The notes under the pieces were generated by a model, which made no database searches, was not told the origin of the DNA, and was given only the letters and a program-made list of their open reading frames with translations. Shown here in pieces: positions 21,451 through 38,544 of a stretch of 55,384 bases of DNA. Source of the DNA: Marinobacterium litorale DSM 23545 (lineage in GTDB: Bacteria > Pseudomonadota > Gammaproteobacteria > Pseudomonadales > Balneatricaceae); NCBI RefSeq assembly GCF_000428985.1, contig NZ_AUAZ01000026.1, positions 1 to 55,384 of the forward strand, given 5' to 3'. Position 1 is the stretch's first letter, and the number at the start of each line of letters is the position of its first letter. The position numbers and the translations under genes were made by a program.

Positions 21451-22071
21451 TCAAGCCGCTTCTAACATACCCTGACGAACGATAAACTCGATTATCTCCT
21501 GTAAGCCCTTACCCTCTTTGAGGTTGGTAAACACATAGGGCCGTTCAGGGCGCATCCGTTGGGTATCAGCCTCCATCACGGACAGGTCCGCGCCCACATA
21601 GGGAGCCAGGTCGATTTTGTTAATCACCAGCAGGTCCGATTTGGTGATTCCCGGGCCGCCTTTACGCGGAATTTTTTCACCCTCAGCCACATCAATCACA
21701 TAGATACACAGATCAGCCAGCTCAGGGCTGAACGTGGCGCTCAGGTTATCGCCGCCGCTCTCGACGAACACCACATCCAAGTCGCCATGGAGACGCGCCA
21801 GATCTTCGACGGCGGCCAGGTTCATCGAAGCATCTTCCCGAATCGCCGTGTGCGGGCACCCCCCGGTCTCAACACCAACGATTCGATCTGCGGGCAACGC
21901 TTCGGCGCGCGTCAGGATCTTGGCATCCTCCTGGGTGTAAATGTCGTTGGTCACGACTGCGATACTGTAGTGATCACGCATCGCCTTACATAGAACCTCT
22001 AACAACGCGGTCTTGCCCGAACCAACAGGACCGCCAACCCCGATACGCAGGGGGGCTTTATATTCACTCAT
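21451..22071 (-). CDS. ureG: Urease accessory GTPase UreG
   Basis: A 206-residue SIMIBI-class GTPase that drives nickel insertion into urease together with UreE, UreF and UreD. The P-loop GGPVGSGKT lies at about 13-21, and the nickel-binding Cys-Pro-His motif is present in [38 protein letters not shown] and the guanine-binding NKID are also seen. Start ATG 22071 has AGGA at the right distance; an upstream in-frame codon at 22086 is not needed. It is the last gene of the cluster, immediately after ureF. Confidence 0.96.
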
Positions 22072-22086
22072 TATTAAATTCCTCAA

Positions 22087-22752
22087 TCAGGATCGGAATA
22101 ACCGGGAGTATTGGGTTTCATGCCGGGCGCTGGCTATCGCCAGCGCCGGAGTTGAGCTGCCGATAGCATCATCCGACAGCCGCATCGCCGTATCGAGCAA
22201 GGCCGGCAGCGTTTCACTGATTGTTAAGAGAAGACGCTGCCCCGCGGTCTGCCCCAACGGCACCAGTTTGACACCGGCCATAACCGCATTTTCCAGCCAG
22301 CTCCAGACAAAGCCACGACACAAGCTGTTTGTTTCTATCGACCAGGCCGAGGCGGCCAGAGCCATACCGGCTAACTGCGTTTGCTTCGCAGAGCGCTGCA
22401 GCGCATCCGGGATAGTCACATCCAGCGCCGGTAGCAGGCGAACCAGAGCCTGAGCGCGCTGGCGCTCCTCAGCGCGGAGTTCACGGGTTTCTCGACTGGC
22501 GATCAGAAACTGGCACCAATGATCGAATGAAGCACTATCATCCTGTGCCAGTGCAGTGCACAGGCGCTGCAAAACCGGAACTTCCAGCGACAGCACACTG
22601 TGTTCCAGCGTGGATGAGAGCCAACGCTCAAGCGACGGCTCGCTTTCAACCCAGCCGGTTTCTATCGCCCACTCCAAACCCTGGGAATACGTAAACGCAC
22701 CCACCGGCAAGGCCGGACTGATGAGCTGGTAGAGCCGCAGATCGGCAAGCAC
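22087..22752 (-). CDS. ureF: Urease accessory protein UreF
   Basis: A 221-residue, all-helical accessory protein that forms the UreD-UreF-UreG activation complex on apo-urease. The family opening is clear: LYQLISPALPVGAFTYSQGLEWAIETGWV. A mid-region SRETRELRAEERQRAQALVRLLP and a C-terminal WLENAVMAGVKLVPLGQTAGQRLL also match the family. It starts four bases before the stop region of the mini HupE/UreJ gene upstream and is followed directly by ureG. Length is typical. Confidence 0.95.
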   Translation of the reverse strand: MLADLRLYQLISPALPVGAFTYSQGLEWAIETGWVESEPSLERWLSSTLEHSVLSLEVPVLQRLCTALAQDDSASFDHWCQFLIASRETRELRAEERQRAQALVRLLPALDVTIPDALQRSAKQTQLAGMALAASAWSIETNSLCRGFVWSWLENAVMAGVKLVPLGQTAGQRLLLTISETLPALLDTAMRLSDDAIGSSTPALAIASARHETQYSRLFRS

Positions 22753-22755
22753 AGT

Positions 22756-22992
22756 TTACTCCTGACGGGCTGCGGACAAGACGCCCTTGCGCGCTTTGCG
22801 TTTGCGCAAAATCTTACGCAGGGCAAACCCTGCACCCACCGCCGCGGCAAGGGCCAGCATCATCGCCAGGTGATCAGGTTCGGTCAAGGTGTGGCCCAAC
22901 CCGGCAAAAAAACTCCCGCCATGAACACCTTCGTGGGCCAGTGCCAAAGAGGGAAAAGCGACCAGAACGGACGCTCCTGCGAACTTATGCAT
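22756..22992 (-). CDS. Short HupE/UreJ-like membrane protein
   Basis: A 78-residue protein with a signal-like N-terminus (MHKFAGASVLVAFPSLALAHEG), then FFAGLGHTLTEPDHLAMMLALAAAVGAGFALRKI and a very basic tail RKRKARKG. The AHEG start followed by a GLxHxxxxxDHLAMM motif is the nickel-binding opening of HupE/UreJ permeases, which are normally about 190-200 residues with six or more spans. Only one further span is present here, so it is a natural short form or a shortened UreJ. Its place between ureE and ureF is where ureJ usually lies. A nickel-related role is inferred. Confidence 0.7.
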   Translation of the reverse strand: MHKFAGASVLVAFPSLALAHEGVHGGSFFAGLGHTLTEPDHLAMMLALAAAVGAGFALRKILRKRKARKGVLSAARQE

Positions 22993-23006
22993 TGTGCTCT
23001 CCTGAA

Positions 23007-23474
23007 TTATATCGATTCGTCGTGGCTGTGATGATGGTGGTGATGGTGCCCTTCGCTACTGTATGCACCGGCTTCCGGCTCAAACGGAGCCTGCTCGCCA
23101 AGCACTTCTGCGCCCAGGCCTCTCACCATGTCGTCAAGGACATGATCATGCTGATAGCGTAAAAACCCTTCGCCCACTTGCAGCGGCACATGACGGTTAC
23201 CCAAATGGTAGGCACAGCGTGTCAGCAGCAGGCTGTCCCCGGTGCGCACCGTTGAAACCGACTCATCGGCAGCCCGTATCTCCACCACTTCGCCACACTC
23301 GCTGATCAAGCGGTCGCCTCCGCGCAGGATCAAGCCCCGCGGCAGGAACAGGCCCGCTTCACGCCCGTCATCCAGCGTGACGCGCAGTCGGCTGCGAATA
23401 CGCGAGTCTATCGGTAAGCTCAAGCTGGCGGTGGCCGCCTGATCTGCTGGAGCCTTGGAGGTCAGTCGTATCAT
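23007..23474 (-). CDS. ureE: Urease nickel chaperone UreE
   Basis: A 155-residue metallochaperone that delivers nickel to the UreG/UreF/UreD complex. The N-terminal peptide-binding domain (about 1-75, with [17 protein letters not shown]) is followed by the metal-binding domain with [34 protein letters not shown], containing the conserved dimer-interface histidine. The tail is histidine-rich ([11 protein letters not shown]), as in Klebsiella UreE, allowing storage of extra nickel. It is placed between ureC and the short HupE/UreJ gene. Confidence 0.95.
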
Positions 23475-23489
23475 TTACAGTTTCCCAAA

Positions 23490-25193
23490 TCAGAACAGGT
23501 AGTAACGCTGAGCCATCGGCAGCTCTGTTGCCGGCTCACAGACAAGCAACTCGCCATCGGCACGCACTTCATAGGTCTGTGAATCGACCTCGATCCGAGG
23601 CTGGTAGCTGTTCAGTATCATCTTGTCCTTGGTCACCGACCGGCAGTCGCGAACCTCTCCAATCAGGCTGCGCAGTCCGAGCTGAGCAGGCACTCCGGCG
23701 GCAAGCGCTGCCTGTGACATAAAGATCATGGACGTACTTTGGGACGCTTTGCCGAAACTACCGAACATCGGCCGGTAATGTACGGGCTGCGGTGTGGGAA
23801 TTGATGCGTTCGGGTCGCCCATAGGCGCCGTTGCAATCATGCCGCCCTTGATAATCATGCTGGGCTTGGTGCCAAAGAAGGCGGGCTTCCACAACACCAG
23901 GTCAGCCAGCTTACCCACCTCCACTGAACCCACCTCATGAGCAATACCGTGGGTCAGTGCCGGGTTAACCGTGTATTTGGCGATATAGCGTTTGATACGG
24001 CTGTTGTCGTTGCGCTCCGAATCACCGGTCAACGCCCCGCGCTGCACCTTCATTTTGTGGGCCGTCTGCCAGGTCCGCGTAATCACCTCACCGACGCGGC
24101 CCATGGCCTGAGAGTCGGAAGAGATCATCGAAAACGCACCCAGATCGTGCAGAATATCCTCAGCGGCTATGGTTTCCCGGCGAATACGGGACTCCGCGAA
24201 GGCTACATCCTCCGCGATGGAGGGATCCAGGTGGTGACACACCATCAACATATCCAGATGCTCGTCGATGGTATTCACGGTGTAGGGACGCGTCGGATTG
24301 GTGGAAGACGGCAGGATATTATTCTCACCCGCCGCCTTGATGATATCCGGCGCGTGGCCGCCGCCGGCCCCTTCCGTGTGATAGGTGTGAATGACACGAC
24401 CGTTGATCGCTTTCAGGGTTGTTTCCACAAAGCCCGCTTCGTTGAGCGTATCGGTGTGAATCGCCACCTGTACATCCATCTCATCGGCCACACTCAGGCA
24501 GCAGTCAATGGCGGCCGGTGTCGTACCCCAGTCCTCGTGCAGCTTTAATCCGATGGCACCGGCAGCCACCTGCTCACGCAGCGCCTCGGGCAGACTGCCG
24601 TTACCCTTACCCAGGAAGCCCAGGTTCATCGGCAGCTCATCTGCAGCTTCCAGCATCCGGTGGATATTCCAGGGCCCCGGTGTGCAGGTGGTCGCATTGG
24701 TACCGGTCGCCGGCCCCGTGCCACCACCCAGCATGGTGGTGATGCCTGAGCAGAGCGCCTCGTCAATCTGTTGTGGGCAGATAAAATGAATATGGGAGTC
24801 GATACCACCGGCCGTCAGGATCTGTCCCTCACCGGCAATGACTTCAGTACCCGGCCCGATCGCGATGGAAACATCCGGCTGCACATCCGGGTTACCGGCT
24901 TTGCCGATCGCCGCTATGCGTCCGCTCTTGATACCCACATCCGCTTTTACGATACCCCAGTAATCGACAATCAGTGCGTTGGTAATCACCAGGTCCATGG
25001 TCCGGCTGCTGGGGCGCTGCCCCTGCCCCATACCGTCACGAATCACTTTACCGCCGCCAAATTTCACCTCTTCGCCGTAGGTGGTGTAATCCTTCTCCAC
25101 CTCCAGCAGCAGTTCCGTATCGGCCAGCCGCACCCGGTCACCGGTGGTTGGACCAAACATCTCCGCGTAGGCCTGTCGGGAAATAGTCGCCAT
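23490..25193 (-). CDS. ureC: Urease alpha subunit UreC
   Basis: A 567-residue catalytic subunit that hydrolyses urea to ammonia and carbamate in the cytoplasm. All active-site parts are visible: nickel ligands in [14 protein letters not shown], the carbamylated lysine K217 in [33 protein letters not shown], the catalytic histidine H320 in MVCHHLDPS and the aspartate in SSDSQAMGR. The numbering matches Klebsiella UreC exactly at K217 and H320, so the enzyme is full length and should be active. It follows ureB by 24 bases, with GGAG at about nine bases before its start. Confidence 0.98.
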
Positions 25194-25217
25194 CTTCTTA
25201 CTCCTGTAGTCTGGGGC

Positions 25218-25523
25218 TTAAAGTGCGCCCATCACCCTGCCCTGAAATCCATAGACTTCCCGTGCGCCCGCGTACTCAACCAGCTCCACCGTGCGGCTCT
25301 GGCCGGGCTCAAAACGCACCGCCGTGCCAGCTGCGATATCCAGTCGATAACCGCGGGCCTGTTCGCGATCAAAACGCAATGCGTCATTCACTTCGTAGAA
25401 ATGGAAATGGGAGCCCACCTGAATCGGGCGATCACCGGTGTTGGCAACTTCGATAGTCACCTTGGCACGGCCGACGTTCAATTCGATTTCACCGGGGTCG
25501 GTGATGATCTCTCCGGGTTTCAT
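25218..25523 (-). CDS. ureB: Urease beta subunit UreB
   Basis: A 101-residue structural subunit. It begins [16 protein letters not shown], the usual opening, and has [55 protein letters not shown], matching the family almost throughout. It packs on UreC to complete the trimer of heterotrimers. It lies 11 bases after ureA and 24 before ureC on the same strand. Confidence 0.97.
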
Positions 25524-25534
25524 CCTGTGCTCCT

Positions 25535-25837
25535 TCAGACGATCGGTTCGTGAACGGTGATCAACTTGGTACCGTCCGGAAATGTGGCCTCAACCTGAAC
25601 CTCGGTAATCATTTCCGCGACCCCATCCATGACATCGTCACGGGCCAGCAGGGTGCGTCCATAATCCATCAATTCAGCGACGCTGCGCCCATCTCGCGCA
25701 CCCTCGAGAATGGCCGCACTGATATAGGCCATCGCTTCCGGATAATTGAGCTTGAGCCCCCGCTCCTTGCGCCGCTCCGCCAGCAGCGCCGCAGTAAAAA
25801 GCAGCAACTTGTCTTTCTCTCTCGGTGACAGCTCCAT
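25535..25837 (-). CDS. ureA: Urease gamma subunit UreA
   Basis: A 100-residue subunit beginning [35 protein letters not shown], with the conserved GRSVAELM and [18 protein letters not shown] end. It is the first gene of the ureABCE-(J)-FG run. A sigma-54-type promoter lies about 60-75 bases upstream, so nitrogen-limited expression is likely. In most related clusters ureD directly precedes ureA; here ureD is nearly 10 kb away at 35461-36309. Confidence 0.97.
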
Positions 25838-25953: not shown

Positions 25954-26964
25954 TTACCCCCGGTCAACGCGGCCTTTGACGCGCAAGCGACTGATACCGC
26001 CATCCGGATAAATATTGATTCGAAGATGCGTGACCCGCTTTGGTGCATCCATTTCGGCACCAAATTGGTGCACTGAGTCGGCAGAGAGTTTCTGCGGCGG
26101 GAGCAGTTCATCCCAAAACATACTCTGTGTAATCAGAGACTCATCGGTCCCCGCTTCCACCAACGCGCCTTGTACCGAACATTTATCAGGATAGTTACCT
26201 TTGAAGAAAGCGGTATCGATGGTGAACTCTTCGATCACGCCCGGCGCAGCCAGTGCCACGATACACCAGTCATTGCCGGGTTCCCGCCGACGCCGTGTTT
26301 CCCAGCCATCGCCCATATTGACACCGGGCGTAGGCAGCAGAATGCGGTTGGGGTCGCCGTAGTGTGAATCGTTCCAGGCCAGCACACGTGCCCCCAGCTC
26401 GCGGGCAGCCAAGTTAACCGCATCCCCGTTATTGAGCTCGGCAACCGGAGAGCCGTAGACACGAAGCCGGGCAACGCCACCGTCTGGCAATATATTCAGC
26501 CGGATATGGCTCCAGGTTCCCACAACCTCGGCGGCGACAAAGTGATGCGCGTCAGGCCCCAGGGACACACTGGGTGTAATCGCTGTCCATTGCGTTGCTG
26601 CATCCGGTGTCCCCTCCACCAGACAGGCCTCAACCATAGCGCCGGGGGGGAAGTTACCGGTGAAAAAGCTGGTATCGATATCGAAGCCGGCAATGACGCC
26701 CGCGACACCGAGTTTAACAATGCACCAGTCATGGCCACCGTTTCTGCGCCGGCGACTTTCCCAGCCATCCATCCATTTACCGTGATCATCATAACGATCC
26801 GGGTAGAACCGCGCAGGTTCCGGCGCGAGCATCCGCGGTGCAGGTGCAAAAAACTGATCTGAGCAGGAGACGATTTCGGCACCCAGCCGAGGATCAGCAA
26901 GATCCAGTTGCCCTTGAGTAAACAGAGGAAGCTCGGCGGGCGCTTGTGCTTCGATAAATTCCAC
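25954..26964 (-). CDS. alc: Allantoicase
   Basis: A 336-residue enzyme that splits allantoate into ureidoglycolate and urea, the third step of purine ring breakdown. It consists of two similar beta-jelly-roll modules. Each carries the family signature: DGWESRRRRNGGHDWCIVKLGVAGVI in the first (about residue 66) and DGWETRRRREPGNDWCIVALAAPGVI in the second (about 220), each followed by DT-FF-GN-P. The internal duplication is typical of allantoicases. It sits between the RpiR-type regulator and the urease genes, so the urea it makes would be used at once. No ureidoglycolate lyase gene is seen in the window. Confidence 0.95.
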   Translation of the reverse strand: MEFIEAQAPAELPLFTQGQLDLADPRLGAEIVSCSDQFFAPAPRMLAPEPARFYPDRYDDHGKWMDGWESRRRRNGGHDWCIVKLGVAGVIAGFDIDTSFFTGNFPPGAMVEACLVEGTPDAATQWTAITPSVSLGPDAHHFVAAEVVGTWSHIRLNILPDGGVARLRVYGSPVAELNNGDAVNLAARELGARVLAWNDSHYGDPNRILLPTPGVNMGDGWETRRRREPGNDWCIVALAAPGVIEEFTIDTAFFKGNYPDKCSVQGALVEAGTDESLITQSMFWDELLPPQKLSADSVHQFGAEMDAPKRVTHLRINIYPDGGISRLRVKGRVDRG

Positions 26965-27028: not shown

Positions 27029-27044
27029 TGCAACATTAGTTCCA
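27029..27044 (-). promoter_or_regulatory. Sigma-54 promoter of allantoicase
   Basis: On the minus strand the sequence is TGGAACTAATGTTGCA. GG and GC are ten bases apart and TTGCA is perfect; against TGGCACG-N4-TTGCA ten of twelve fixed positions agree. It lies about 65 bases before the allantoicase start. The bases just in front (ATTGATT) repeat those before the ureA promoter. Confidence 0.75.
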
Positions 27045-27143: not shown

Positions 27144-27995
27144 TCAGGTCAGATCCGGTACCCCGAGACTGATTTCGTCCAGGGCGTCATAGTAATGGCT
27201 GATCTTGGCGATGCGCTCACGGCCCACCTCGAGCCGCTGATGCAAGAGACGATTGACGAGAAGCGTGACCAGACACATGGGGGCTGCGTAGCTATCAAAC
27301 GCGGAACGCGAATCTATTCGACATTCGAACCACCAGTTCGCACAGGTGCCATTCGGGGCCAGGGTTTCGTCGGCAACCAGCGCCCAGGGCGTATCGAGCC
27401 GATAAAGCTGGCGCAGAAGTGCATCAAACCCCTTGGGACGGCGGCGGAAGCCGAACACGATCAGCAGATCATCAGGCCCCAGGTCAGCCAGATCTTCACC
27501 GAGGGTTTGTCCGGGCTGAGGGACGAGCTGAACCGAACTGCGAATCTGCTGTAACTGCTGACGCAGATGCAGTGCCAGTGGATAGCTGTTGCGAAAGCCG
27601 AGAACAACAACACGCCGGGCCTGATCAAGTGCACGGACAAGACCATCCACCTGTGCCGTATCCAGGGACTGAAACAGACGGTGCAGATTGGCCTCTTCCT
27701 GATGCAGATGAGTATCGAAAGCCACCGTATCGACTTTCGCTTCGGTAACCGGAACACCCTGATGACGGAGCTTGCGGGCCAACTCGCGCCCTTCCCTGAA
27801 TGAGGAAAAGCCGAGTCGCTTGAACAACCGGCTCACCGTTGCCTTGGACACACCGCACATCCTTGCCAGTTCCGCGGTATTAAAGAGCGCGAGATCTTCC
27901 GGGTGCGCCAGAATAAAATCAGCGATCAGCCGCTCTCGGGGTGTCAGACTGTCATACTGGAGTTGCAGTTTTTCATCGATGGTCGGTTCGGTCAC
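27144..27995 (-). CDS. RpiR/MurR-family regulator with SIS domain
   Basis: A regulator of about 283 residues. The N-terminal helix-turn-helix (about 10-80) has the RpiR pattern LTPRERLIADFILAHPEDLALFNTAELARMCGVSKATVSRLFKRLGFSSFREGR; the C-terminal part is a sugar-isomerase-like SIS domain (about 110-250, with RRVVVLGFRNSYPLALHLRQQLQQI). RpiR-type regulators close to allantoin or urate genes often act as repressors relieved by a pathway intermediate. It is divergent from the allantoinase gene and upstream of allantoicase. Start: GTG 27995 has GAGG six bases in front; ATG 28007 is possible. Confidence 0.85.
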   Translation of the reverse strand: MTEPTIDEKLQLQYDSLTPRERLIADFILAHPEDLALFNTAELARMCGVSKATVSRLFKRLGFSSFREGRELARKLRHQGVPVTEAKVDTVAFDTHLHQEEANLHRLFQSLDTAQVDGLVRALDQARRVVVLGFRNSYPLALHLRQQLQQIRSSVQLVPQPGQTLGEDLADLGPDDLLIVFGFRRRPKGFDALLRQLYRLDTPWALVADETLAPNGTCANWWFECRIDSRSAFDSYAAPMCLVTLLVNRLLHQRLEVGRERIAKISHYYDALDEISLGVPDLT

Positions 27996-28060
27996 AGCAG
28001 GCCTCATGCACACCGGGCCAGCCCCGGTGGCGGGATGGCCATCAAACGAACTATCTTAGC

Positions 28061-28119: not shown

Positions 28120-29049
28120 ATGTCAGATTCAGCCTATCCGCGTGATCTAATCGGCTATGGCAAACAGCCCCCCGACGCTCGCTGGCCCGGCCGGGCACGC
28201 CTGGCCCTGCAATTCGTTCTGAACTATGAAGAGGGTGGTGAGAACTGCGTGTTGCATGGAGACCCCCATGCTGAAACCTTTCTTTCCGAGATCGCCGGTG
28301 CCCAACCCTACCCGGATCGCCACCTGAGCATGGAGTCGATTTACGAGTACGGATCCCGCGTCGGCGTATGGCGTATTCTGCGGGAGTTTGATCGGCGCGG
28401 ACTACCACTCACGGTATTCGGCGTGGCAACCGCGCTTGCCCGCAACCCGGAGGTCACTCAGGCCTTTATCGAGGCGGGACATGAAATCGCAAGTCATGGC
28501 CTGCGCTGGATCCACTATCAGGAGATGTCGGCCGATGAAGAGCGCCGCCACCTGCAGGAGGCGATGCGAATTATTACCGAGTTGACCGGAACCGCACCAC
28601 TGGGCTGGTATACCGGACGTGACTCCCCTAACACCCGCCGGCTGGTCGTTGAGCATGGCGGGCTATTGTACGACTCTGACTATTACGGCGACGATTTGCC
28701 GTTCTGGACTCAGGTCGAGACCACCAACGGCGAGTCACACGATCACCTGGTGGTACCCTATACGCTGGATTGCAATGATATGCGTTTTGCGTCTCCCCAG
28801 GGGTTCGCGGACGGTGACCAGTTCTTTAACTACCTGCGTGATAGTTTCGATACGCTGTACGCAGAAGGCGCACTTCAACCAAGGATGATGTCGGTGGGCC
28901 TGCATTGCCGTCTGGTCGGTCGCCCGGGCCGGTTCAGAGCGCTGCAGCGTTTCCTGGATCATGTTGAACGTCATCCCGATGTCTGGGTAACGCGTCGCGT
29001 CGATATTGCCCGGCACTGGATCAGCGAACACCCGCCGGCAAAGGTGTAG
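28120..29049 (+). CDS. puuE: Allantoinase PuuE (polysaccharide-deacetylase fold)
   Basis: A 309-residue member of the cofactor-independent allantoinase family PuuE, which opens the allantoin ring to allantoate and is unrelated to the metal-dependent amidohydrolase allantoinase. The typical opening is YPRDLIGYGKQPPDARWPGRARLALQFVLNYEEGGE; EIASHGLRWIHYQEM and GWYTGRDSPNTRRLV follow, as does DSDYYGDDLPFW. AAGGAG is seven bases before ATG 28120. It is divergent from the regulator gene. With allantoicase and urease it gives a near-complete allantoin to ammonium path. This PuuE is distinct from the aminotransferase of the putrescine pathway that has the same symbol. Confidence 0.93.
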   Translation: MSDSAYPRDLIGYGKQPPDARWPGRARLALQFVLNYEEGGENCVLHGDPHAETFLSEIAGAQPYPDRHLSMESIYEYGSRVGVWRILREFDRRGLPLTVFGVATALARNPEVTQAFIEAGHEIASHGLRWIHYQEMSADEERRHLQEAMRIITELTGTAPLGWYTGRDSPNTRRLVVEHGGLLYDSDYYGDDLPFWTQVETTNGESHDHLVVPYTLDCNDMRFASPQGFADGDQFFNYLRDSFDTLYAEGALQPRMMSVGLHCRLVGRPGRFRALQRFLDHVERHPDVWVTRRVDIARHWISEHPPAKV

Positions 29050-29223
29050 CTAAAAAGCGCGTTTAGCCAGCCTATACGCATACACTATGTATGGTTATAT
29101 TCACTCTCTGCACCGTTGTGGCTCAAAAGTCCGACAAAGATGCTACAAAATGGTGGTTTTTCAACGACCAGGGGGTTTGAAAGTTCAATGGCATCAGGCT
29201 ACAGCCCCCGTGTTGACCGGCCC

Positions 29224-29243: not shown

Positions 29244-29259
29244 TGGCGTATAAATTGCT
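29244..29259 (+). promoter_or_regulatory. Sigma-54 promoter of the amt fusion gene
   Basis: TGGCGTATAAATTGCT fits the consensus TGGCRYR-N4-TTGCW at every fixed position. The GG and GC pairs are ten bases apart. The expected start is near 29270, giving a leader of about 60 bases before the GTG at 29329. That leader contains a strong hairpin. Ammonium transporter genes are classic sigma-54/NtrC targets, which supports the call. Confidence 0.82.
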
Positions 29260-29328: not shown

Positions 29329-32300
29329 GTGTCCGACCAACAAGCGTTCAATGCACTCTGGCTGATGATTGCCGCTGTTCTCGTGCTCGTCATGCAGGGC
29401 GGTTTTCTTTGTCTCGAGTCGGGGCTGACCCGCAGTAAAAACGCCATCAACGTGGCGCTTAAAAACGCCTTTGACCTGCTGGTAACCACTGTGCTGTTCT
29501 GGCTGGTGGGCTTCAATCTGATGTTTGGCGCCCACCAAGGGTTCGATCTTGATTTTTCATTAATCGCAGCGGATTTCAGTAGCCTGAGCTTCTGGACCGC
29601 CAGCTTCTTCTTCTTTCAGCTGACGTTCTGTGCCACAGCGGCCACCATCGTATCCGGTGCGATAGCCGAGCGAACCCGCTTCAGTACTTACGTGCTGCTG
29701 ACAGCATTGATCGCATTGATCGTCTATCCCGGTTTCGGTCACCTGGCCTGGGGCGGCGCCCTGTCCGGCCCCGCCGGTTGGCTGGGTGCCCAGGGGTTTG
29801 TGGATTTTGCAGGCAGTACCGTCGTCCATAGCCTTGGAGGCTGGGTAGCACTGGCCGCCATCATTGTGGTTGGCCCCCGTAAAGGCCGGTTTGTCGATGG
29901 CAAGGTGAACCAGATACCCGGCAGCAACCTGCCTTTCGCCATGCTGGGCATGATGTTTTTCATCATCGGCTGGATCGGTTTCAACGGCGGCAGCACTCTG
30001 GAATTCTCCGAGGCGATCCCCGGCATCATCGTGAATACACTGATCGCCGCGACAGTGGGCGGAATTACCGGCATGCTGCTGGGGCACTACCAGCCCGTAG
30101 GCAATCAGACTTCGCAACTCACGATCAACGGAACCCTGGCCGGCCTTGTCGCCATTACCGCCGGGTGCCACGCCGTCAGCACCCTTGAGGCGGCGTTAAT
30201 CGGGGGCGTTGGCGCACTGTGCATGCGCCTGACCGAGCTTCTGTTAATCCGGCTGAAGCTCGACGACGCCATCTCAGCCACACCGGTTCACCTGGCCGCC
30301 GGGATCTGGGGCACGCTGGCTGTCGCTTTGTTCGGCGACGCGTCAGTTCTCGGTACCGGCCTGACCCGCCCTGAACAGCTGTTGGTTCAGATCAAGGGGA
30401 TCCTGATCTGCGGCGCCTGGGCATTTTCACTGTCACTGGCCTTCCTGCTGGTGTTGCGCCGGTTTACCCCACTTCGGGTAACCGATGCCGCGGAGGATGA
30501 GGGCCTCAACAGCTCAGAGCACGGCGCGTCCACCGAGCTGACCGACCTGCTCAACGCCATGAACGAGCAGGAGCGTAGTGGCAACACCGAGCGCGCGGTA
30601 CCGGTAGAGCCCTTCACCGAGGTGGGCCAAATCGCAAAAAAGTACAATCAGGTGATGAGCAAACTCAACCGCATGGTCGCGCGGACGCGATTGATCTTGA
30701 GAGACATGCGCGACGGCGTCATCACCTTCAGTGAACAGGGCATCATTACCAGTGTTAACCCCGGTGCGGAATCCATCTTCGGACGCAAACACCATCAACT
30801 GGTGGGGCAGTCGGTCGGCGTCCTGCTGCACGAGGAGTGCCGCGCACTCTATCCGCGTATCCAGACCGACAAGCTATTTGTACTGATTGCCACCAGCCAG
30901 AACGAAGGCCCCCATGAACTGATCGGCCGCGATGGCGCCGGCCAACCCCTTCAGATCGAAGTGACCACCTCGGCAAGCCCCACCGAAGAGGGCGTTCAGT
31001 ACAGCGCCGTGATCCGTGACATCGGTGAGCGGAAACGGATGGAGGAACGTTTACACCGCCACTCCGAGCTTGCGCAGGTGACCCTGGAAGCGATCACTGA
31101 GGCGGTCATCACCTGTGATGCGGATATGAAAACGGTTTACCTGAACCCGGTTGCCAAGACGCTGACGGGCTGGCGGCCCGATGACGCCTTCGGCCAGCCC
31201 ATCGATCAGGTAATCCGACTTCAGCATGAAGCGGGCGATAACGTCTCTATCGCTGCGCTCTGCCGTGATAGCGAACCCGCCGGTGAGTACCGCCAGCTGC
31301 GGCTGCTGGGCGCGAACGGTGAACGCGCTCTGGTGCAGCTTAATTGCGCCCCCCTGCGTGATGCGTCCGGCAGGGGCGTGGGCTGGGTCATCGCCATGCA
31401 GGACATCACCCAGAACAGTGAACTGCAGGCCAAGCTGACCTTCCAGGCGGTTCACGACGCGTTAACCGGCCTGATCAACCGGCGCGAGTTTGAGCGGCGG
31501 CTCGATCAACTGATTATCGCGGCTCGTGCTGATAAAACCGAACACCTGATCTGCTACCTCGATCTGGACCAGTTCAAGCTGGTCAACGATACCTGTGGTC
31601 ACCGGGCGGGTGATGCCCTGCTGCGCCAGCTCTCGCAGGAGCTCAAACCGATACTGCGCCAGAATGATACCTTTGCCCGCCTTGGCGGCGACGAATTCGG
31701 TATTCTGCTGGGTAACTGTCCGGTGGAGCGCGGCCGCCTGATCGCCGAACAGCTGCGCCAGACAGTCAAGGATTTCCGCTTTCCCTGGGAGGGACAGGTA
31801 TTTTCTGTCGGCGTCAGTATCGGCCTGGTGCCGTTTGGCCCCGACTGTGAATCACTGGATGAACTTCTGAGTCTGGCCGATGCTGCCTGCTATGCCGCCA
31901 AAGATGCCGGGCGTAACCGTGTCCATCTGTATGAGCCCGATGACAGTGAGCTCAGCCACCGCAAAGGACAGATGCAGTGGGCGGCAAACATTCAGCAGGC
32001 GATCGATACCGACCGCTTCCGTCTGTTCTTCCAGACCATTGAACCACTCAAACCCGATACCGCCGCGGCACCGCATATCGAGATCTTTGTGCGGATGCTT
32101 GATGAGCGTAACAGCCTTATTCCTCCCGGCGCCTTTGTCCCCGCTGCCGAGCGTTATGACCTGATGCCCCAGATCGACCAGTGGGTCATCCGTAACACAC
32201 TGGCCTGGCTCGGCGATCGCCTCCATGCAGAGAACAACCCGATCCAGTGCGCGATCAACCTGTCCGGCGTCTCCATTGGCAACGTCGAGTGCCTGGAAGC

Positions 32301-32742
32301 GATCAAACGCGACATTGAACGTCACCGGATACCGGCACACTACCTCTGCTTTGAGATCACCGAGACCGCCGCCATGTCAGACCCGGAAGCGGCTCGCGCG
32401 TTCATCAATGAGCTGAAGTCGCTGGGCTGTCGTTTTGCACTGGATGATTTCGGCAGCGGCCTCTCCTCTTTCGGTTATCTGAAAAAACTGCCGGTGGATT
32501 ATCTGAAGATCGACGGTATTTTCATTCGCGACCTGGCCAATAACGAGATTGACCAGGCGATGGTGGCATCGATTAACAACATCGCTCATATCATGGGTCT
32601 CAAGACCGTCGCAGAATTTGTCGAAGATAAGAAAACACTGGGACTGCTGCGTCAGATAGGCGTCGACTTCGCACAGGGATACCTGCTCAGCGCACCCAGC
32701 CCTCTGGAGCAGTTGGGACAGGTCCGCGTGATGCCTCGCTGA
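29329..32742 (+). CDS. Ammonium transporter fused to PAS-PAS-GGDEF-EAL
   Basis: A 1137-residue fusion. Residues 1 to about 395 form an Amt channel with 11 membrane segments; the pore histidines appear conserved (STVVHSLGGW and ATPVHLAAGIWGTL). A short helical linker leads to two PAS domains (about 440-565 and 575-700), a GGDEF domain (about 705-865) and an EAL domain (about 880-1125). The cyclase motif is intact (GGDEF 786-790) with an RxxD inhibitory site (RQND). The EAL motif reads EIF (E918), but NLSG, EITE, DDFG, LKID and QGY are kept. The likely job is to sense or pass ammonium and set cyclic-di-GMP. The start is GTG 29329 after AGGGAG. The gene lies amid allantoin and urea genes. Confidence 0.93.
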   Translation: MSDQQAFNALWLMIAAVLVLVMQGGFLCLESGLTRSKNAINVALKNAFDLLVTTVLFWLVGFNLMFGAHQGFDLDFSLIAADFSSLSFWTASFFFFQLTFCATAATIVSGAIAERTRFSTYVLLTALIALIVYPGFGHLAWGGALSGPAGWLGAQGFVDFAGSTVVHSLGGWVALAAIIVVGPRKGRFVDGKVNQIPGSNLPFAMLGMMFFIIGWIGFNGGSTLEFSEAIPGIIVNTLIAATVGGITGMLLGHYQPVGNQTSQLTINGTLAGLVAITAGCHAVSTLEAALIGGVGALCMRLTELLLIRLKLDDAISATPVHLAAGIWGTLAVALFGDASVLGTGLTRPEQLLVQIKGILICGAWAFSLSLAFLLVLRRFTPLRVTDAAEDEGLNSSEHGASTELTDLLNAMNEQERSGNTERAVPVEPFTEVGQIAKKYNQVMSKLNRMVARTRLILRDMRDGVITFSEQGIITSVNPGAESIFGRKHHQLVGQSVGVLLHEECRALYPRIQTDKLFVLIATSQNEGPHELIGRDGAGQPLQIEVTTSASPTEEGVQYSAVIRDIGERKRMEERLHRHSELAQVTLEAITEAVITCDADMKTVYLNPVAKTLTGWRPDDAFGQPIDQVIRLQHEAGDNVSIAALCRDSEPAGEYRQLRLLGANGERALVQLNCAPLRDASGRGVGWVIAMQDITQNSELQAKLTFQAVHDALTGLINRREFERRLDQLIIAARADKTEHLICYLDLDQFKLVNDTCGHRAGDALLRQLSQELKPILRQNDTFARLGGDEFGILLGNCPVERGRLIAEQLRQTVKDFRFPWEGQVFSVGVSIGLVPFGPDCESLDELLSLADAACYAAKDAGRNRVHLYEPDDSELSHRKGQMQWAANIQQAIDTDRFRLFFQTIEPLKPDTAAAPHIEIFVRMLDERNSLIPPGAFVPAAERYDLMPQIDQWVIRNTLAWLGDRLHAENNPIQCAINLSGVSIGNVECLEAIKRDIERHRIPAHYLCFEITETAAMSDPEAARAFINELKSLGCRFALDDFGSGLSSFGYLKKLPVDYLKIDGIFIRDLANNEIDQAMVASINNIAHIMGLKTVAEFVEDKKTLGLLRQIGVDFAQGYLLSAPSPLEQLGQVRVMPR

Positions 32743-32825
32743 TTTAGCAAAGCGGCCACTGTCACCGTGACGCAACCTGTTGGGGCTAAGCTGGGTGAGC
32801 GTTGAATACCCAGTGGAGCCCGTTG

Positions 32826-35516
32826 ATGCCATCCTCCTTCTACCGCGATATTCGCGACCAATACGAACATTTCCTCAGTAAGGCCGATGGCGGTGTGGAT
32901 ACCCATAACCGCCTGCGGATCGATCTGCATTGCCATGACCGCAACAGCGATATCCCTGATGAGCTTTGGGGCCGGTTACTGCGGCTACCCGAAACCTGGC
33001 TGGAAACCGATCAATTGGTGAACGCACTAAACCGCGCCGGAACCGACCTTATAACCGTTACCAACCACAATAATGCACGCTCCTGCTGGTCGCTGATTGA
33101 AGCGGGCCAATCGGTACTCACCGGCTGTGAGTTCACCTGTCACTTTCCCGGCGAGGCGCTCAGCGTCCATGTACTGATCTATGGATTTTCTCCGCAACAG
33201 GAGCAGATGCTGAACGACTTGCGCCACGACATTTACGCGTTCTGTGCCTATGCCCGTCAGCAGGACCTGCCCACGGTACTGCCCCACCCCCTGTTTTTTT
33301 ACAGTCATGGCAACCGCGTATCCACCGAGGTTCTGGAGCGCTTTGCACTGCTGTTCGAGCGCTTTGAAGTCCTCAACGGCCAGCGCGGCTACTGGCAGAA
33401 CTTGCTGACGCTACGCTGGGTACAGAGCCTGACGCCTGAGAAGATCGATCGTTGGGCACGCAAGCATAACCTGAATCCCTACGATTACTGTCGCGATCCC
33501 TATCGCAAACGACTGACCGGCGGCTCCGATGATCATAACGGTCTCTTTGCCGGTCGCTGCGGCACGCTGCTGGAGATCCCGGACCTGCAAGCCAGGCTAT
33601 CGGCCGGAGCAAGCAAGGCCGAGCTGGCGCTGGAGGCGCTGAAAGACGGACGCATCGCCCCCTACGGGTTTGTCGGCGAGGAGGAAAAACTGACCACCAC
33701 CTTCCTGGACTACTTCGCTCAAGTGGTACTCAATATGGAAGATCCGGGCCTGATACGAATGTTGTTGCACAAGGGCTCGCTGAAGGATCGTTTAATCTGC
33801 CTGGGCCTGAGCAATGTGCTGCAGGAACTGAAGCGGCACAAATACACACTCACCTTTCTGGATACCTTTCATCAGGCACTCAAGGGTAAAAAGCCCAAGA
33901 TGCTGGTTAATCTCGGCGTTTCCAGTGAATTTAAACCCACCCTTAAACTGATCAAGCAGATCGCACGCACGCAGCGCGACACCCCCGAACGGTTTCCGGA
34001 AGTGCTGCGTGAAGCGATACCGGACCTGCATCGACAGATCAGTAAAACATTCTTCAGCCGTGTTCATGACGAGCTGGATAAGCTGGACACCCACGCCCTG
34101 TCATCAATCCCGGTCGACGAGATGGTCCGTATGCTGGAGGTGCCCTCCTACTTCCGGGCGCTGTTCTCATCGGAGAAGAGTAACGGGCGGGATATGTCAC
34201 AGGTGGATCTGGCAAAGCTGCTGGACAAGCTCACTTTTCCGGCCCTATCGGCCGGAGTTGTCGCTGGCGCCGCCTTCGCCAGTACCCGTGTTCTCTACAG
34301 TAACCGAAGATTCCTGGATCAGCTTGCTGAGCAGCTGGAAATACCCGGTCATCCGCAACGGATTCTCTGGCTAACCGACACCTTTGCGGATCGCAACGGG
34401 GTTTCCTCCGCCCTGCGCGACACCCTGACCCAGGTGCAGGAGAAAGGACTGCCGATCGATCTGCTGGTATGTCACCCCACTCTCAAACCGCAACCGCACC
34501 TCCAGGTGATCCGCCCTATCAGCTCGTTTGACTTCAACCAGCTGGGCGAGCAAACCATCCATGTACCGGACCTGCTCGAGGTGCAGAAACTGTTCGAACA
34601 GGGCGGCTATGACCGCATTATCTGCTCCACCGAACTCTGCATGGGGCCCGTGGCCCTCTATCTAAAGCATGCCTACTCGGTACCGGCGTGGTTCTATATG
34701 CACACAGACTGGCTGGAGTTTATCAACCGAAAGACGGGGCTGGATCACCACTTTCAGGATCGCATTCGCCGCCTGATTCGTGCATTTTATCATCAGTTCG
34801 ACGGAATCTTTGCGCTGAATGATGAACACCGCTCCTGGCTGACGGGCCCGGAAATAGACCTGCCTGAGGAACGGGTCAAACTCACCGCTCACTGGGCAAA
34901 TACCAGCACCTCAACCGCAAGCCTGGTACCGCGCGTTGAGAATGATCATCCGATCCTGCTGTATGTAGGCCGCCTGAGCGAAGAGAAAGGAGTGATGGAT
35001 CTGGCCCCTATCTGGCAGCAGATCAGGGAAGCGCATCCCGGTGCCCAGCTCTGGGTTGCCGGCAGCGGACCGGCGGAAAAGAAGCTGCGCAAAAAGCTGC
35101 CCGAGGCGATGTTTTTCGGCTGGCTGGAGCAGTCCCAGATCCCTCAGCTTTACCAGCAGGCCGATCTGCTGCTGCTTCCTTCCCGTTTCGACACCTTCGG
35201 GTGCGTCATTCTGGAAGCGATGCGTTCGGGTTTGCCCACTCTGGCATACAACTGCAAAGGACCCGCTTCGATCATCCAGGCCGGTCGCAGTGGACTGCTG
35301 GCGAACTCTCTGGACGACATGGCGGAACAGGCGGTGGCCTATCTCGCCAACCCCGGCGCCCAGGGTAATCTGAGAGTGGGCGCCCTGGCACGCTGCCTGG
35401 ATTACGCGCCCGAGCGCATCCTGAGCGATCTGCTACGGGACATGGGAATGGAGCCGCCGGTCAGGTTGACCAGATCCGAGGCGGCACTGCAGCTCGCCCC
35501 GCCAACAACGGCCTGA
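32826..35516 (+). CDS. PHP-domain / GT4 glycosyltransferase fusion
   Basis: A protein of about 896 residues. The N-terminal quarter is a PHP-type metal-dependent phosphoesterase domain, with RIDLHCHDRNS, VTNHNNA, GCEFTC, LPHPLFF and GGSDDHNG supplying the metal-binding His/Asp/Glu set. The middle (about 300-500) is helical and unassigned. The C-terminal 400 residues form a GT4-type glycosyltransferase: a Rossmann start LWLTDTFADRNGVSSALRDTL, then YVGRLSEEKGVMDLAPIW and the donor-site part LPSRFDTFGCVILEAMRSGLPTLAY. It starts at ATG 32826 with GGAG eight bases upstream. It may make a surface glycan or glycolipid. Its 3' end overlaps the ureD end by 56 bases. Confidence 0.85.
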   Translation: MPSSFYRDIRDQYEHFLSKADGGVDTHNRLRIDLHCHDRNSDIPDELWGRLLRLPETWLETDQLVNALNRAGTDLITVTNHNNARSCWSLIEAGQSVLTGCEFTCHFPGEALSVHVLIYGFSPQQEQMLNDLRHDIYAFCAYARQQDLPTVLPHPLFFYSHGNRVSTEVLERFALLFERFEVLNGQRGYWQNLLTLRWVQSLTPEKIDRWARKHNLNPYDYCRDPYRKRLTGGSDDHNGLFAGRCGTLLEIPDLQARLSAGASKAELALEALKDGRIAPYGFVGEEEKLTTTFLDYFAQVVLNMEDPGLIRMLLHKGSLKDRLICLGLSNVLQELKRHKYTLTFLDTFHQALKGKKPKMLVNLGVSSEFKPTLKLIKQIARTQRDTPERFPEVLREAIPDLHRQISKTFFSRVHDELDKLDTHALSSIPVDEMVRMLEVPSYFRALFSSEKSNGRDMSQVDLAKLLDKLTFPALSAGVVAGAAFASTRVLYSNRRFLDQLAEQLEIPGHPQRILWLTDTFADRNGVSSALRDTLTQVQEKGLPIDLLVCHPTLKPQPHLQVIRPISSFDFNQLGEQTIHVPDLLEVQKLFEQGGYDRIICSTELCMGPVALYLKHAYSVPAWFYMHTDWLEFINRKTGLDHHFQDRIRRLIRAFYHQFDGIFALNDEHRSWLTGPEIDLPEERVKLTAHWANTSTSTASLVPRVENDHPILLYVGRLSEEKGVMDLAPIWQQIREAHPGAQLWVAGSGPAEKKLRKKLPEAMFFGWLEQSQIPQLYQQADLLLLPSRFDTFGCVILEAMRSGLPTLAYNCKGPASIIQAGRSGLLANSLDDMAEQAVAYLANPGAQGNLRVGALARCLDYAPERILSDLLRDMGMEPPVRLTRSEAALQLAPPTTA

Positions 35517-36309
35517 CAGCGCTCCAGATCGCAGATAACAGCCGCAGCATGGGCTCCGTACCGGGGCCCAGAAGGCGAACGGCAATCACGCCATCAACCC
35601 ATGTCGCACCGGCTTCCAATCCGCTTGAGTGGGCTTCGACCTGCGCCCTGACCTGATCGAGTATCTCGTCGGCGCGGGACGGGTCCCAACCCGGCACGAT
35701 CAGCATGGTCGCCTGCATCGGGTAACCGCGCATACCGGAGGCCGCCTGAATCAGGCGCTCCCCCTGAGTGCGAAGCTGGTCAATCAGCACCAGTTCGCCA
35801 TCAATCGACAGCCGGGTGGATGCGTTGACCGCTCCGGTATCAAACGCCTCACTGATGGCGGGTCGACCCAAACACTGCATATCCCAACCGATAAACGCCG
35901 CCCCGGACTCAAGCTCAATGCGGGTTTCGACCTGCGCCCGGGCATCAGGGAAGAAGATATTTTCCTGGGGCATCCATTCCAGCAGCCCCCCTGCTGCGAC
36001 CTCAAGGGTTTGCACCTGGGTTGCCAGACGACCACCGGAGCGGTAGAACTTGGTCGCACCGGGTGTTGTAATCAGGGCTTTGGCATCGGCCTCCACCGCA
36101 ATCCGAATATCCAGGCTGTCACTCCCAACCACCCCGCCCGGCGGGTGCAGCAGATAGGTGTGACACACCTCGCCTTCCGGGTAAAACGGGCGCTGGACTG
36201 CCAGAGGGCCGTGCCGCTCACGTTCGATTATTCGAGTACAACCGCCGCGCTGTGCGTACCTGAGCCGCAGCAGCGCTTCCCAGCCAGCGGGCTTGGCTAA
36301 CATATTCAT
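35461..36309 (-). CDS. ureD: Urease accessory protein UreD
   Basis: A 282-residue accessory protein that binds apo-urease and channels nickel from UreG through UreF. The family opening is seen in WEALLRLRYAQRGGCTRIIERERHGPLAVQRPFYPEGEVCHTYLLHPPGGVVGSDSLDIRI, with later LITTPGATKFYRS, LEWMPQENIFF and GWDMQCLGRPAISE. It is complete but stands apart from the other urease genes: allantoicase, the RpiR regulator, puuE, the amt fusion and a glycosyltransferase lie between. It converges with the glycosyltransferase gene with a 56-base overlap. No sigma-54 match was found in its 86-base upstream gap. Confidence 0.95.
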   Translation of the reverse strand: MNMLAKPAGWEALLRLRYAQRGGCTRIIERERHGPLAVQRPFYPEGEVCHTYLLHPPGGVVGSDSLDIRIAVEADAKALITTPGATKFYRSGGRLATQVQTLEVAAGGLLEWMPQENIFFPDARAQVETRIELESGAAFIGWDMQCLGRPAISEAFDTGAVNASTRLSIDGELVLIDQLRTQGERLIQAASGMRGYPMQATMLIVPGWDPSRADEILDQVRAQVEAHSSGLEAGATWVDGVIAVRLLGPGTEPMLRLLSAIWSAVRPLLAGRAAVPPRIWST

Positions 36310-36396: not shown

Positions 36397-38544
36397 TCAC
36401 TGCGTTGAGACTTCAAACGAGCCCACCAGCTGCTGCAGTTTATCGGCGGTAATCCGGGTCTGATCAGAGCTGGTCTGCAGGGCTCGGATCGACGCGCGCA
36501 TCTCTGTACTGATCTGCGAGACGCCCTGCGCCGTCTCGCCATTACGCTGACTGTTCTCATCGATATGCTTGATGATATCGAACATCTGCTCGACCAGATC
36601 GTGCAGGCGGGCGTTATCGGCAGATGCATCCTGGGTCATCCGCAGGTTCTGGTCCACATCTTCAACCCCCTTTTCCATAAACCGAACGGCATCACCGCTT
36701 TCGTTCTGAATGCTTTCGATCTTGCTGCCGATATCCTGAGCTGCGGCTTCTGTCCGCGCAGCCAGCCGTCGTACCTCATCGGCCACCACCGAAAAGCCCC
36801 GCCCATGCTCGCCGGCACGCGCGGCCTCGATGGCTGCATTCAGGGCCAGCAGATTGGTCTGCGCCGTAATATCCGTGATCACATCGACAATCTCACCAAT
36901 CTCCGAGGTGCTCTCATTCAGACCCTGAACACGCTGCGCGGAGGTCTCCACCACATCGCGTATGGTCTGGGTGCCGGCACGTGCGCTTTCGTAGCTGCGA
37001 CGCGCTTCCTCGACCACCTCTTCCATCGCCTGGCGCATTTCGCCTGCGGTAATGGAGGCTCGGGAGATATCTTCCAGCTGCTGGGAGACCAGCCCCATCA
37101 TTTCGTCGATCGCCTGATTCACTTTATTGGCCGAGTGGTGGGCGACCTGGTTGCGCGACTGCATGATGTTGCTGTTCTTCTCGACCCCGTCAGCGGCTTT
37201 GATCACCTGACCGACGATAGCATCCAGATTATCGACAAAGCTGTTGATCCAGCGCGACAGATCGTTGGTCTCATCATTGGACATACGCTCGGTATCGATA
37301 CGCTGGCGCAGATTTCCCTCGCCTTCGGCTAGCGTCCGAATCACATCGGTCATCCGTCCCATCCGGCGCGCCAACCGCTTGGGTCCAAAAGCCATATAGC
37401 CGAGCGCGGCAACTGCCATCATACCGCCCTGCATCAAGTAGGAGGACCAGTCCGGCATCTCGACCAGATGCTGAATTGCTGAACTGACACCCCAGGCGCC
37501 ACCGATCATGAGCGTCAGCAGTCGACCTTGCTTATAGCTGACGGAACGACGGCGGTACACCTCCTCCAGATCGGCTTCGCACATCATCCCCCAGCGGTCG
37601 GGGGACCCGGGCATCTGAAAGGTTACCCCTTTACCGATCACCGGAATGTGCCGGTAATCGGAGTAACCGGGGTAGAGAATATAGAGATTTTCACCGTTAC
37701 GGATCGTCTCTCGAACCCCGGGATGAAGCTGACCGGTAGCCGGGTCGGTAAAACGGATCTCGAACTCGGTGTGCTTGCGGACCTGAACAGTCCCGAAGTC
37801 GGTATGGATACCGCTTTTCAGGTTCTCGCCGTGGGCAAAGGTATCATCCTCAAAGCGCGAACGTGACAAAGCGATCCCCTGAGCGATGGACCGGTCGAAG
37901 TGGGACTCCACCATGAACAGATAGTTGTCGCCGGACTCGGGATAGATATGACCGGCTTCACGTTGAATCAGATCACCGATGACATCGTTCGGCACCCGAC
38001 CACACAAACAGCCTTTCACCTCGGAGTCGATAATCAGCGGTTGATAGAACATCAGCGTGACCTGATCATGAAACTTGGAGCTTGAAGGACCGATCTGCTC
38101 GGTCAGCGGATCGGTATACGGGCCGTGCAGGAACGGCCTTTTCAGCCCTTCTGACAAGGCTTTTTCATCACGAACTACAGAACCCGCGCGCCCTGCAAGC
38201 GTGGAGTGGGCGATCTGACCGTCAGCTCGGACAAAAAACAGCTCCGAGAAATCATCAGCCTGTTTCAGCTTGGCGTTAAACAGATCGGCATCGATCTCCG
38301 GGTAGTGATCCGCCAACTGATCAGCCAGGCTCTCCAGATGGCTCCACTGAGTGCGCGCCCAGCGTTGAAGCAGTCCCACCCGAATCCGGGCGACACCCTC
38401 AAAGGTATGCTCAAGCACCTCGGTGGCATCGCGGTTCAGCCAGCAGGACCAGCGCATCTTCAGTTTTCCGGTCGCCCCGAGCCAGGGTAGCCAGCGGCGT
38501 TCAGCGGGGGACAGGTTCATCTGGTGGCTTTTAAGCGACTTCAT
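36397..38544 (-). CDS. Methyl-accepting chemotaxis protein, unusual topology
   Basis: A chemoreceptor of about 715 residues. The signalling end is standard: the conserved hairpin with [40 protein letters not shown] lies at about residue 545. What is odd is the front: there is no membrane span near the N-terminus. A sensor-like region of about 330 residues (with [14 protein letters not shown] and [23 protein letters not shown], cache-like) comes first, then two closely spaced membrane segments ([39 protein letters not shown]), a HAMP-like part and the signalling domain. It thus seems to sense in the cytoplasm or lacks a leading span. Start ATG 38544 has GAGG eight bases upstream. Confidence 0.88.

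Follow-up and report, generated by a model that had tools for sequence, protein, structure and literature searches.

An ammonium transporter module fused to PAS-PAS-GGDEF-EAL in Marinobacterium litorale: a probable ammonium receptor with cyclic-di-GMP output and a sigma54 promoter-like element

Introduction

Receptors that join an ammonium transporter (Amt) module to a histidine kinase or a GGDEF output are already known, and their structures have been solved. In Ks-Amt5, two ammonium ions are held by Q24, E31, N47, D50, T51, T109 and T112, as given in the accessible part of the report (PMC5764959). Among enzymes of cyclic-di-GMP (c-di-GMP) turnover, RbdA has phosphodiesterase activity, and a PAS-containing construct is described as both a cyclase and a GTP-enhanced phosphodiesterase (PMC7825114). 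Loss of rbdA raises c-di-GMP (PMC7148300). Here we describe a gene of Marinobacterium litorale DSM 23545 that joins an Amt module, two PAS domains, a GGDEF domain and an EAL domain in one frame. It lies in a stretch of 55,384 nucleotides (contig NZ_AUAZ01000026.1), hereafter the window, and was singled out from the sequence alone in an original prediction, which read it as a sensor converting the ammonium made by neighbouring enzymes into a c-di-GMP level.

Our best overall explanation, which we consider likely, is an ammonium receptor with c-di-GMP output that is expressed from a sigma54, probably NtrC-dependent, promoter. The Amt module would be mainly a receptor and no longer mainly a transporter, and ammonium would be bound at an intramembrane site formed by Q23, E30, N46, D49, T106 and S109, as in Ks-Amt5. 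A HAMP-like linker and the two PAS domains would relay binding to a GGDEF-EAL pair of RbdA type, with a change in c-di-GMP turnover as the outcome. The promoter would bring the receptor up when nitrogen is scarce.

Results

Architecture and conservation of the fusion

Pfam places Ammonium_transp, PAS in two stretches, GGDEF and EAL on the fusion protein, all far above the cut-off (Table 1). The original prediction had recognized Amt, two PAS, GGDEF and EAL in a single frame correctly, but had overlooked the HAMP-like linker. The AlphaFold model, built from a 21-row alignment (predicted local distance difference test score, pLDDT, 79.7; predicted template modelling score, pTM, 0.43), shows 11 long helices (16–33 residues) up to residue 379, in agreement with the 11 spans first proposed, as well as two PAS-like parts, a GGDEF-like part and an EAL-like part. 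In Foldseek searches, the membrane part matched Sd-Amt1 (8qpf, 8qj3 and 8qj4) with template modelling (TM) scores by target of 0.90–0.93 and Ks-Amt5 (6eu6) with 0.91. A. fulgidus Amt-1 (0.88) and E. coli AmtB (0.85–0.90) ranked lower by E-value, and the four are hardly separable by TM-score alone. The sequence match to Sd-Amt1 has an E-value of 3e-133 for the whole sequence and 1e-112 for residues 9–448, linker included. RbdA (5xgb) ranked first by E-value in the Foldseek search with the model (9e-47), with a whole-chain TM-score by target of just 0.47 because the domains differ in arrangement in the model; in sequence, RbdA matches residues 568–1127 with 46% identity (E 4e-157). The linker zone of the model contains helices 404–417 and 431–461 at a pLDDT of about 44–70, a pattern that would suit a HAMP linker, and P428, E431, I435, A436 and N440 are invariant in nine aligned fusions with differing outputs. 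The linker of Sd-Amt1 is one that we take to be a HAMP domain.

Table 1. Features of the fusion gene, its upstream region and its neighbours in the window
Feature	Position	Strand	Basis or remark
Amt-PAS-PAS-GGDEF-EAL fusion gene	29329..32742	+	1137 aa, GTG start, without internal stop
Amt receptor module	29356..30531	+	aa 10-401; Pfam Ammonium_transp, E 2.7e-103
HAMP-like linker	30538..30678	+	aa 404-450; co-linear with Sd-Amt1 linker
PAS 1	30682..31053	+	aa about 452-575; Pfam
PAS 2	31078..31413	+	aa 584-695; Pfam; within RbdA-like part aa 568-1127
GGDEF with I-site RQND	31447..31920	+	aa 707-864; Pfam E 4e-41
EAL, motif EIFVR, catalytic residues kept	31987..32697	+	aa 887-1123; Pfam E 6e-62
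sigma54 (-24/-12) promoter-like element TGGCGT-N5-TTGCT	29244..29259	+	invariant columns in 8 genus members
NtrC-site-like TGCACC-N5-GGCTCA	29109..29125	+	10/12 positions; 220 nt before start codon, 135 nt before sigma54-like element
puuE allantoinase, neighbour outside receptor	28120..29049	+	TIGR03212
RpiR-family regulator	27144..28013	-	PF01418 and PF01380
allantoicase	25954..26964	-	TIGR02961
ureA-ureB-ureC-ureE-(small hydrophobic open reading frame)-ureF-ureG	21451..25837	-	ureC/E/F/G by domain models; ureA, ureB and the small frame by eye
ureD, far side of fusion	35461..36309	-	PF01774

An error joining two separate genes, which the original prediction had itself named as fatal, was looked for across the genomes of the GTDB family. 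At E ≤ 1e-200, 18 of the 116 genomes (own included) match the fusion protein; they belong to two of the 16 genera, with eight in the window's genus and ten in one further genus. Unbroken copies with 65–84% identity are present in 15 other family genomes, and the identical architecture occurs in other families, which excludes a frameshift or assembly error. In one of the 18, G085 (87% complete), the gene is split over two frames, as in an artefact, and the copy of G084 is cut by a contig end; an artefactual joining is nevertheless so improbable that we disregard it. The fusion is real and conserved, though this kind of receptor is not unprecedented. The ratios of nonsynonymous to synonymous substitution rates (dN/dS) are 0.12 for Amt, 0.13 for the linker, 0.16 for each PAS, 0.07 for GGDEF (the lowest of the modules) and 0.10 for EAL, as estimated from a codon alignment of seven genus copies (21 pairs) with dS values of 1.1–1.5, near saturation. 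All modules are therefore maintained under purifying selection.

The Amt module

The two pore histidines noted at the outset are present as the twin His H167/H321, and the transporter pore residues kept besides them are the Phe gate F100/F218 and W141/S222. The counterparts of the seven site residues of Ks-Amt5 are Q23, E30, N46, D49, L50, T106 and S109, of which five are identical, T112 being replaced by Ser and T51 by Leu. The site letters of Sd-Amt1 match those of the fusion except for Phe at 50. Q23 and T106 are absent from all four unfused Amts of the genome, and D49 is absent from three of them. The proposal that the Amt part serves as an ammonium sensor with c-di-GMP output is thus supported, since the closest solved relative is named 'Receptor Sd-Amt1' (ON/OFF states) and the site residues match.

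In a careful tree of 86 Amt modules (410 columns), a single branch separates the 66 fused modules, among them Ks-Amt5 and Sd-Amt1, from the 20 unfused Amts. This branch has a support of 100/98 and is present in 100% of 200 bootstrap trees; the unfused rows are the nearest found plus two of the genome's own, and hence a selection and not a sample of all Amts. With cut-offs of 85% for fused and 30% for unfused rows (66 and 20), three residues mark the fused side. A43 occurs in 98% of fused and 5% of unfused Amts, H138 in 97% and 20%, and N394 in 100% of the fused rows with a letter and 0% of the unfused ones, all 20 of which have Asp. A43 sits one turn ahead of N46, and N394 begins the C-terminal stretch, which is regulatory in AmtB.

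The presence of the twin His, the Phe gate and all selectivity residues, together with a merely partial set of the pore-plugging residues of Ks-Amt5, would also suit a transceptor. In such a protein, ammonium import by the Amt part would continue, and what the cytosolic part signals would be the transport cycle instead of a bound ion. We regard this alternative as improbable. The fusion groups with the fused Amts, Ks-Amt5 and Sd-Amt1 among them, and no PII gene lies nearby, both PII genes of the genome flanking another Amt. Moreover, Ks-Amt5 has the same pore motifs and yet is reported to lack efficient ammonium translocation (PMC5764959). A receptor that binds ammonium at the intramembrane site therefore remains our preferred explanation. 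In a divergent copy (L063:8355-11819, genome G128), a degenerate ammonium site (D49N, T106A) accompanies a broken EAL signature, as if sensor and output had decayed together.

The output module and its direction

As first described, the GGDEF domain is intact (786–790) and its inhibitory site R777-Q-N-D780 is complete; the I-site RxxD is found in all eight genus copies. The EAL domain had been credited with most of its catalytic residues, which is an understatement, because E918, R922, E941, N977, E1009, D1039/D1040, K1060, E1096, E1099 and Q1116, the catalytic residues of such domains, are all retained. The EIF motif that had seemed unusual is indeed there, but it loses much of its oddity: it occurs in 8/8 genus copies with the Glu retained, RbdA has ELL, and every aligned GGDEF-EAL fusion keeps the Glu of this motif. 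EIF as the mark of a dead EAL domain was rejected on these grounds.

Because the scaffold is RbdA-like, the I-site intact and the EAL site complete, the net output is, by analogy, probably GTP-stimulated c-di-GMP hydrolysis with the cyclase held in reserve. The converse would be a net diguanylate cyclase, in which ammonium turns the GGDEF domain on, c-di-GMP rises and the EAL domain acts as a brake. In its favour, constraint is strongest on GGDEF (dN/dS 0.07), the I-site is found in every genus copy, and Sd-Amt1 has a GGDEF domain, which ammonium was reportedly proposed to switch on, raising c-di-GMP. However, the EAL residues are just as complete, and the closest output relative, RbdA, behaves as a phosphodiesterase in vivo in the available portions of two reports (PMC7148300, PMC7825114), so we hold the cyclase alternative to be unlikely and keep net hydrolysis as the preferred output.

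Distribution of Amt fusions and their outputs

Such fusions are less rare than originally thought. In a class sample, a scan with the Amt-plus-linker part (E ≤ 1e-85) matched 18 of 369 genomes, 13 of them (own included) with a signalling domain behind the Amt in frame. In a phylum sample, 21 of 398 genomes match, of which 18 have long frames (741–1298 aa, scored by frame length) and three are unfused; the two samples share three genomes, that of the window among them. The outputs of the 13 class fusions, assigned by Pfam for 10 proteins and by full-length BLAST for the remainder, comprise the full PAS-PAS-GGDEF-EAL order in seven genomes (own included), and otherwise a histidine kinase, kinase-receiver, GGDEF or chemoreceptor signalling domain. 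In other gammaproteobacterial families with the same domain order, the Amt part is 50–63% identical.

The domain order, which the original prediction had suggested searching for, is thus found in the family and the class, and it recurs in named genomes. The scan of these covered the best 80 of at least 588 confirmed relatives, with domains called by BLAST against seeds. Among the matches listed, the RbdA-type order occurs in Marinobacter sp. ELB17, Halochromatium roseum, Vreelandella stevensii, Vreelandella sedimenti and Pseudomonas neustonica, and other GGDEF-EAL fusions in Marinomonas, Neptuniibacter, Neiella, Roseibium, Stappia, Salinarimonas, Agrobacterium albertimagni, Novosphingobium, a Granulosicoccaceae and a Magnetococcales assembly.

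Seven kinds of output were distinguished: histidine kinase, GGDEF, RbdA-type GGDEF-EAL, another GGDEF-EAL, chemoreceptor, class III cyclase and SpoIIE-type phosphatase. With 'unfused' as an eighth label, the careful tree requires 13 changes where the least possible is 7, indicating that outputs were exchanged several times; a quick tree with slightly different rows gave 14, two of them for the RbdA-type group. Fusions with the RbdA-type output cluster together in the careful tree, at a modest support of 68/82.

Several of the other pairings deserve description. In Pelagibacteraceae (SAR11), the Amt receptor module precedes a SpoIIE-type phosphatase (e.g. L091:5956-8103, L099:5959-8109 and L105:228-2522); SpoIIE-type fusions amount to thirteen loci with frames of 707–765 aa, three of them examined by Pfam, and Leptolyngbya sp. 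PCC 6406 (L087) has the same pairing. An Amt with a chemoreceptor (MCP) signalling domain was seen at L068:8365-10635, L070, L071, L106, L107, L109, L110, L112, L115, L118 and L123 (Pfam for the first three loci, BLAST for the others), with hosts including Vibrio, Roseibium, Terasakiella, Methylobacterium and Salibacterium; these are possible ammonium chemoreceptors. Two metagenome-assembled genomes, of a Leptospiraceae (L077:3386-5530) and a Treponema (L111:5980-8790), join the Amt to a class III nucleotide cyclase and to a CheA-like Hpt-HATPase, respectively.

The promoter-like elements

The sole run of invariant columns upstream of the fusion start in the eight genus members is TGGCG-N6-TTGCT, to be compared with the sigma54 consensus TGGCACG-N4-TTGC given in the accessible part of PMC3224663. 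Elements within 400 nt were scored as sigma54-like if they had correctly spaced GG and GC and matched the consensus at 9/11 positions or more. The window element scores 9/11 and is conserved in 8/8 genus members. Such elements precede every fusion of the genus (8/8) and of the second genus (9/9), as well as 8/11 RbdA-type fusions from elsewhere; among these eleven, three Vreelandella-like ones are closely related and do not count as independent. The RbdA-type total is 25/28, the discovery set of eight included, compared with 27/416 for controls from the same loci and 4–6% for shuffles. Outside both genera, 13/28 other fusions have the element versus 27/416 controls (Fisher p 5e-8), and the named fused loci have it in 9/53 versus 12/331 controls (p 7e-4), including 4/6 with RbdA-type output (L073 repeats L044), 1/1 with a single GGDEF and 0/1 with a class III cyclase. 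A pattern search that allowed one mismatch did not exceed chance overall (7 matches versus 4.7 expected) and missed the fusion site, which has two mismatches.

NtrC-like sites, matching at least 10/12 positions of the NtrC consensus, occur in 12/45 fusion upstreams versus 21/1350 shuffles, and in 3/8 of the genus. In the second genus, most of them lie downstream of the promoter, an unusual place for an enhancer. Both ntrC and rpoN are present in the genome, and the layout at its glnK-amt-glnK operon resembles that of the fusion. Judging from these elements, the fusion is probably expressed under nitrogen limitation. A hairpin beside the ribosome-binding site was discarded, being no better than shuffles (z -0.41) and not conserved in the genus, and Rfam at gathering cut-offs found no RNA element at the fusion.

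The allantoin and urease neighbourhood

The allantoinase, allantoicase and urease genes named by the original prediction are present at the locus (Table 1), and in the genus the setting is maintained. With the window counted, and within stretches some of which are limited by contig ends, ureC was found in 7/8 members, ureD in 6/8, the RpiR-family gene in 6/8, allantoicase in 5/8 and puuE in 5/8. A sigma54-like element, TGGAACTAATGTTGCA, also precedes allantoicase (27029-27044, minus strand) and is identical in 4/5 genus copies within the stretches covered; upstream of puuE, such an element was looked for and is absent. The maintained neighbours and the elements ahead of both fusion and allantoicase would fit a protein that specifically monitors ammonium from the adjacent pathway. 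However, none of these neighbours, nor the glycosyltransferase-like gene described below, was found near the fusion in 9/9 loci of the second genus or 14/14 loci of other families (5–20 kb each), and 44 named loci (up to 13 kb) have domain-level matches only to these neighbours. The fusion is kept where the neighbours are absent, and within these stretches the urea setting is a trait of the window's genus alone; coupling is unsupported, and as a general feature it is ruled out. In addition, allantoinase and allantoicase yield no ammonium, and urease is the sole ammonium releaser in this set. The idea that the protein reads ammonium made by its neighbours thus did not hold up, and we consider a specific link to the pathway very unlikely.

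Other features of the surroundings were recorded. A gene resembling PHP-GT4 glycosyltransferases (32802-35516, plus strand) lies directly downstream of the fusion and is near it in 7/8 genus members. A chemoreceptor gene within the urea/allantoin locus (36397-38559, minus strand), whose product may sense a nitrogen compound, is preceded by a sigma54-like element at a distance of 36 nt (40 nt in L044). A match to the Rfam family 5_ureB_sRNA (RF02514; 100.6 bits; 24760-25041, plus strand) runs antisense to the urease alpha gene. A TamA-like gene and an adjoining large open reading frame (13039-18557, minus strand) are also near the fusion in two of the nine loci of the second genus (L051:2283-8026 and L056:10-5180), with identities to the window of 46% and 32–34%; the pair appears to be a remnant of gene order shared between the two genera. 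In two other families (L060:5648-7270 and L064:11609-12862), the fusion is flanked by genes with a glutamate-synthase region and an FAD-dependent oxidoreductase (DAO) domain, which possibly serve nitrogen metabolism.

Discussion

Several points weigh against the ammonium receptor under a sigma54 promoter that we favor. All transporter pore residues are kept, so that transport could persist, and two of the three pore-blocking residues of Ks-Amt5 are less bulky in the fusion (L29, L33). The ammonium-site residues are common in the 20 unfused Amts (Glu 20, Asn 20, Gln 12, Asp 12, Thr 16, Ser 20); the site therefore looks necessary but not diagnostic, and as sufficient proof of sensing it was rejected. 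The pTM of 0.43 means that the domain arrangement cannot be taken from the model, and Pfam HAMP is below threshold on the fusion protein, linker (about 404–450) included. PA2072 has the same domain order as RbdA and acts in the opposite direction, its loss lowering c-di-GMP according to the available part of PMC7148300, so the direction is not readable from the architecture. The sigma54 cut-off of 9 was set after the scores were seen, with the genus (8) as the discovery set, and three RbdA-type fusions (L061, L074 and L075) are without the element. With other outputs, the link is weak (5/17 outside both genera; in the named fused loci, kinase 1/13, SpoIIE 0/13, chemoreceptor 1/8 and other GGDEF-EAL 2/11). 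It was rejected for the receptor lineage as a whole and is supported just for RbdA-type fusions.

A wider reading, to which we give even weight for and against, is that a dedicated Amt branch gave up transport long ago and turned into a general receptor for ammonium, marked by A43, H138 and N394, with at least seven swapped outputs. In marine Gammaproteobacteria, the RbdA-type would then be a nitrogen-starvation (sigma54) gene by which external ammonium leads to c-di-GMP hydrolysis.

If the proposed receptor function is true, a single protein would link nitrogen status directly to whether marine bacteria attach or swim. The fusion would also be a bifunctional enzyme of c-di-GMP turnover whose ligand is known, small and readily titrated, and it poses the structural problem of how a trimeric Amt sensor drives an output that normally acts as a dimer. 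In annotation, where 'ammonium transporter' models fit receptors and transporters alike, the residue signature could tell the two apart.

Comparison with known systems

A keyword search of titles and abstract starts in the open-licence literature returned no paper on an Amt-GGDEF-EAL fusion, although an in-text mention is possible, and a 2023 review of prokaryotic Amts does not contain 'diguanylate', 'GGDEF', 'EAL' or 'fused'. In the portions of that literature covered by the search, we likewise found neither the sigma54 element nor the residue signature, and neither a bifunctional output of RbdA type nor the range of output kinds. We put forward the sigma54-type element before RbdA-type fusions and the A43/H138/N394 signature as new here, without claiming that they are unpublished.

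AmtB/GlnK transporters share the Amt fold and pore residues with the fusion, which differs in having no adjoining PII gene, N394 where 20 unfused Amts have Asp, and a fused output. RbdA (PA0861) of Pseudomonas aeruginosa (5xgb/5xgd/5xge) is 46% identical in PAS-GGDEF-EAL over about 550 aa and has the same catalytic residues, whereas its solved part has no Amt match, its motif is ELL instead of EIF, and its input is different. Ks-Amt5 of Candidatus Kuenenia stuttgartiensis (6eu6) shares the intramembrane two-ammonium site and the clade of fused Amts; its output is a histidine kinase, without HAMP or PAS (PMC5764959), and its T51/T112 are Leu/Ser in the fusion. Sd-Amt1 of Shewanella denitrificans (8qj3, 8qj4 and 8qpf) is built like the fusion from an Amt receptor module and a linker (about 44% identity) followed by GGDEF. 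Sd-Amt1 ends in this single GGDEF domain, whereas the fusion described here continues as PAS-PAS-GGDEF-EAL with a complete phosphodiesterase site.

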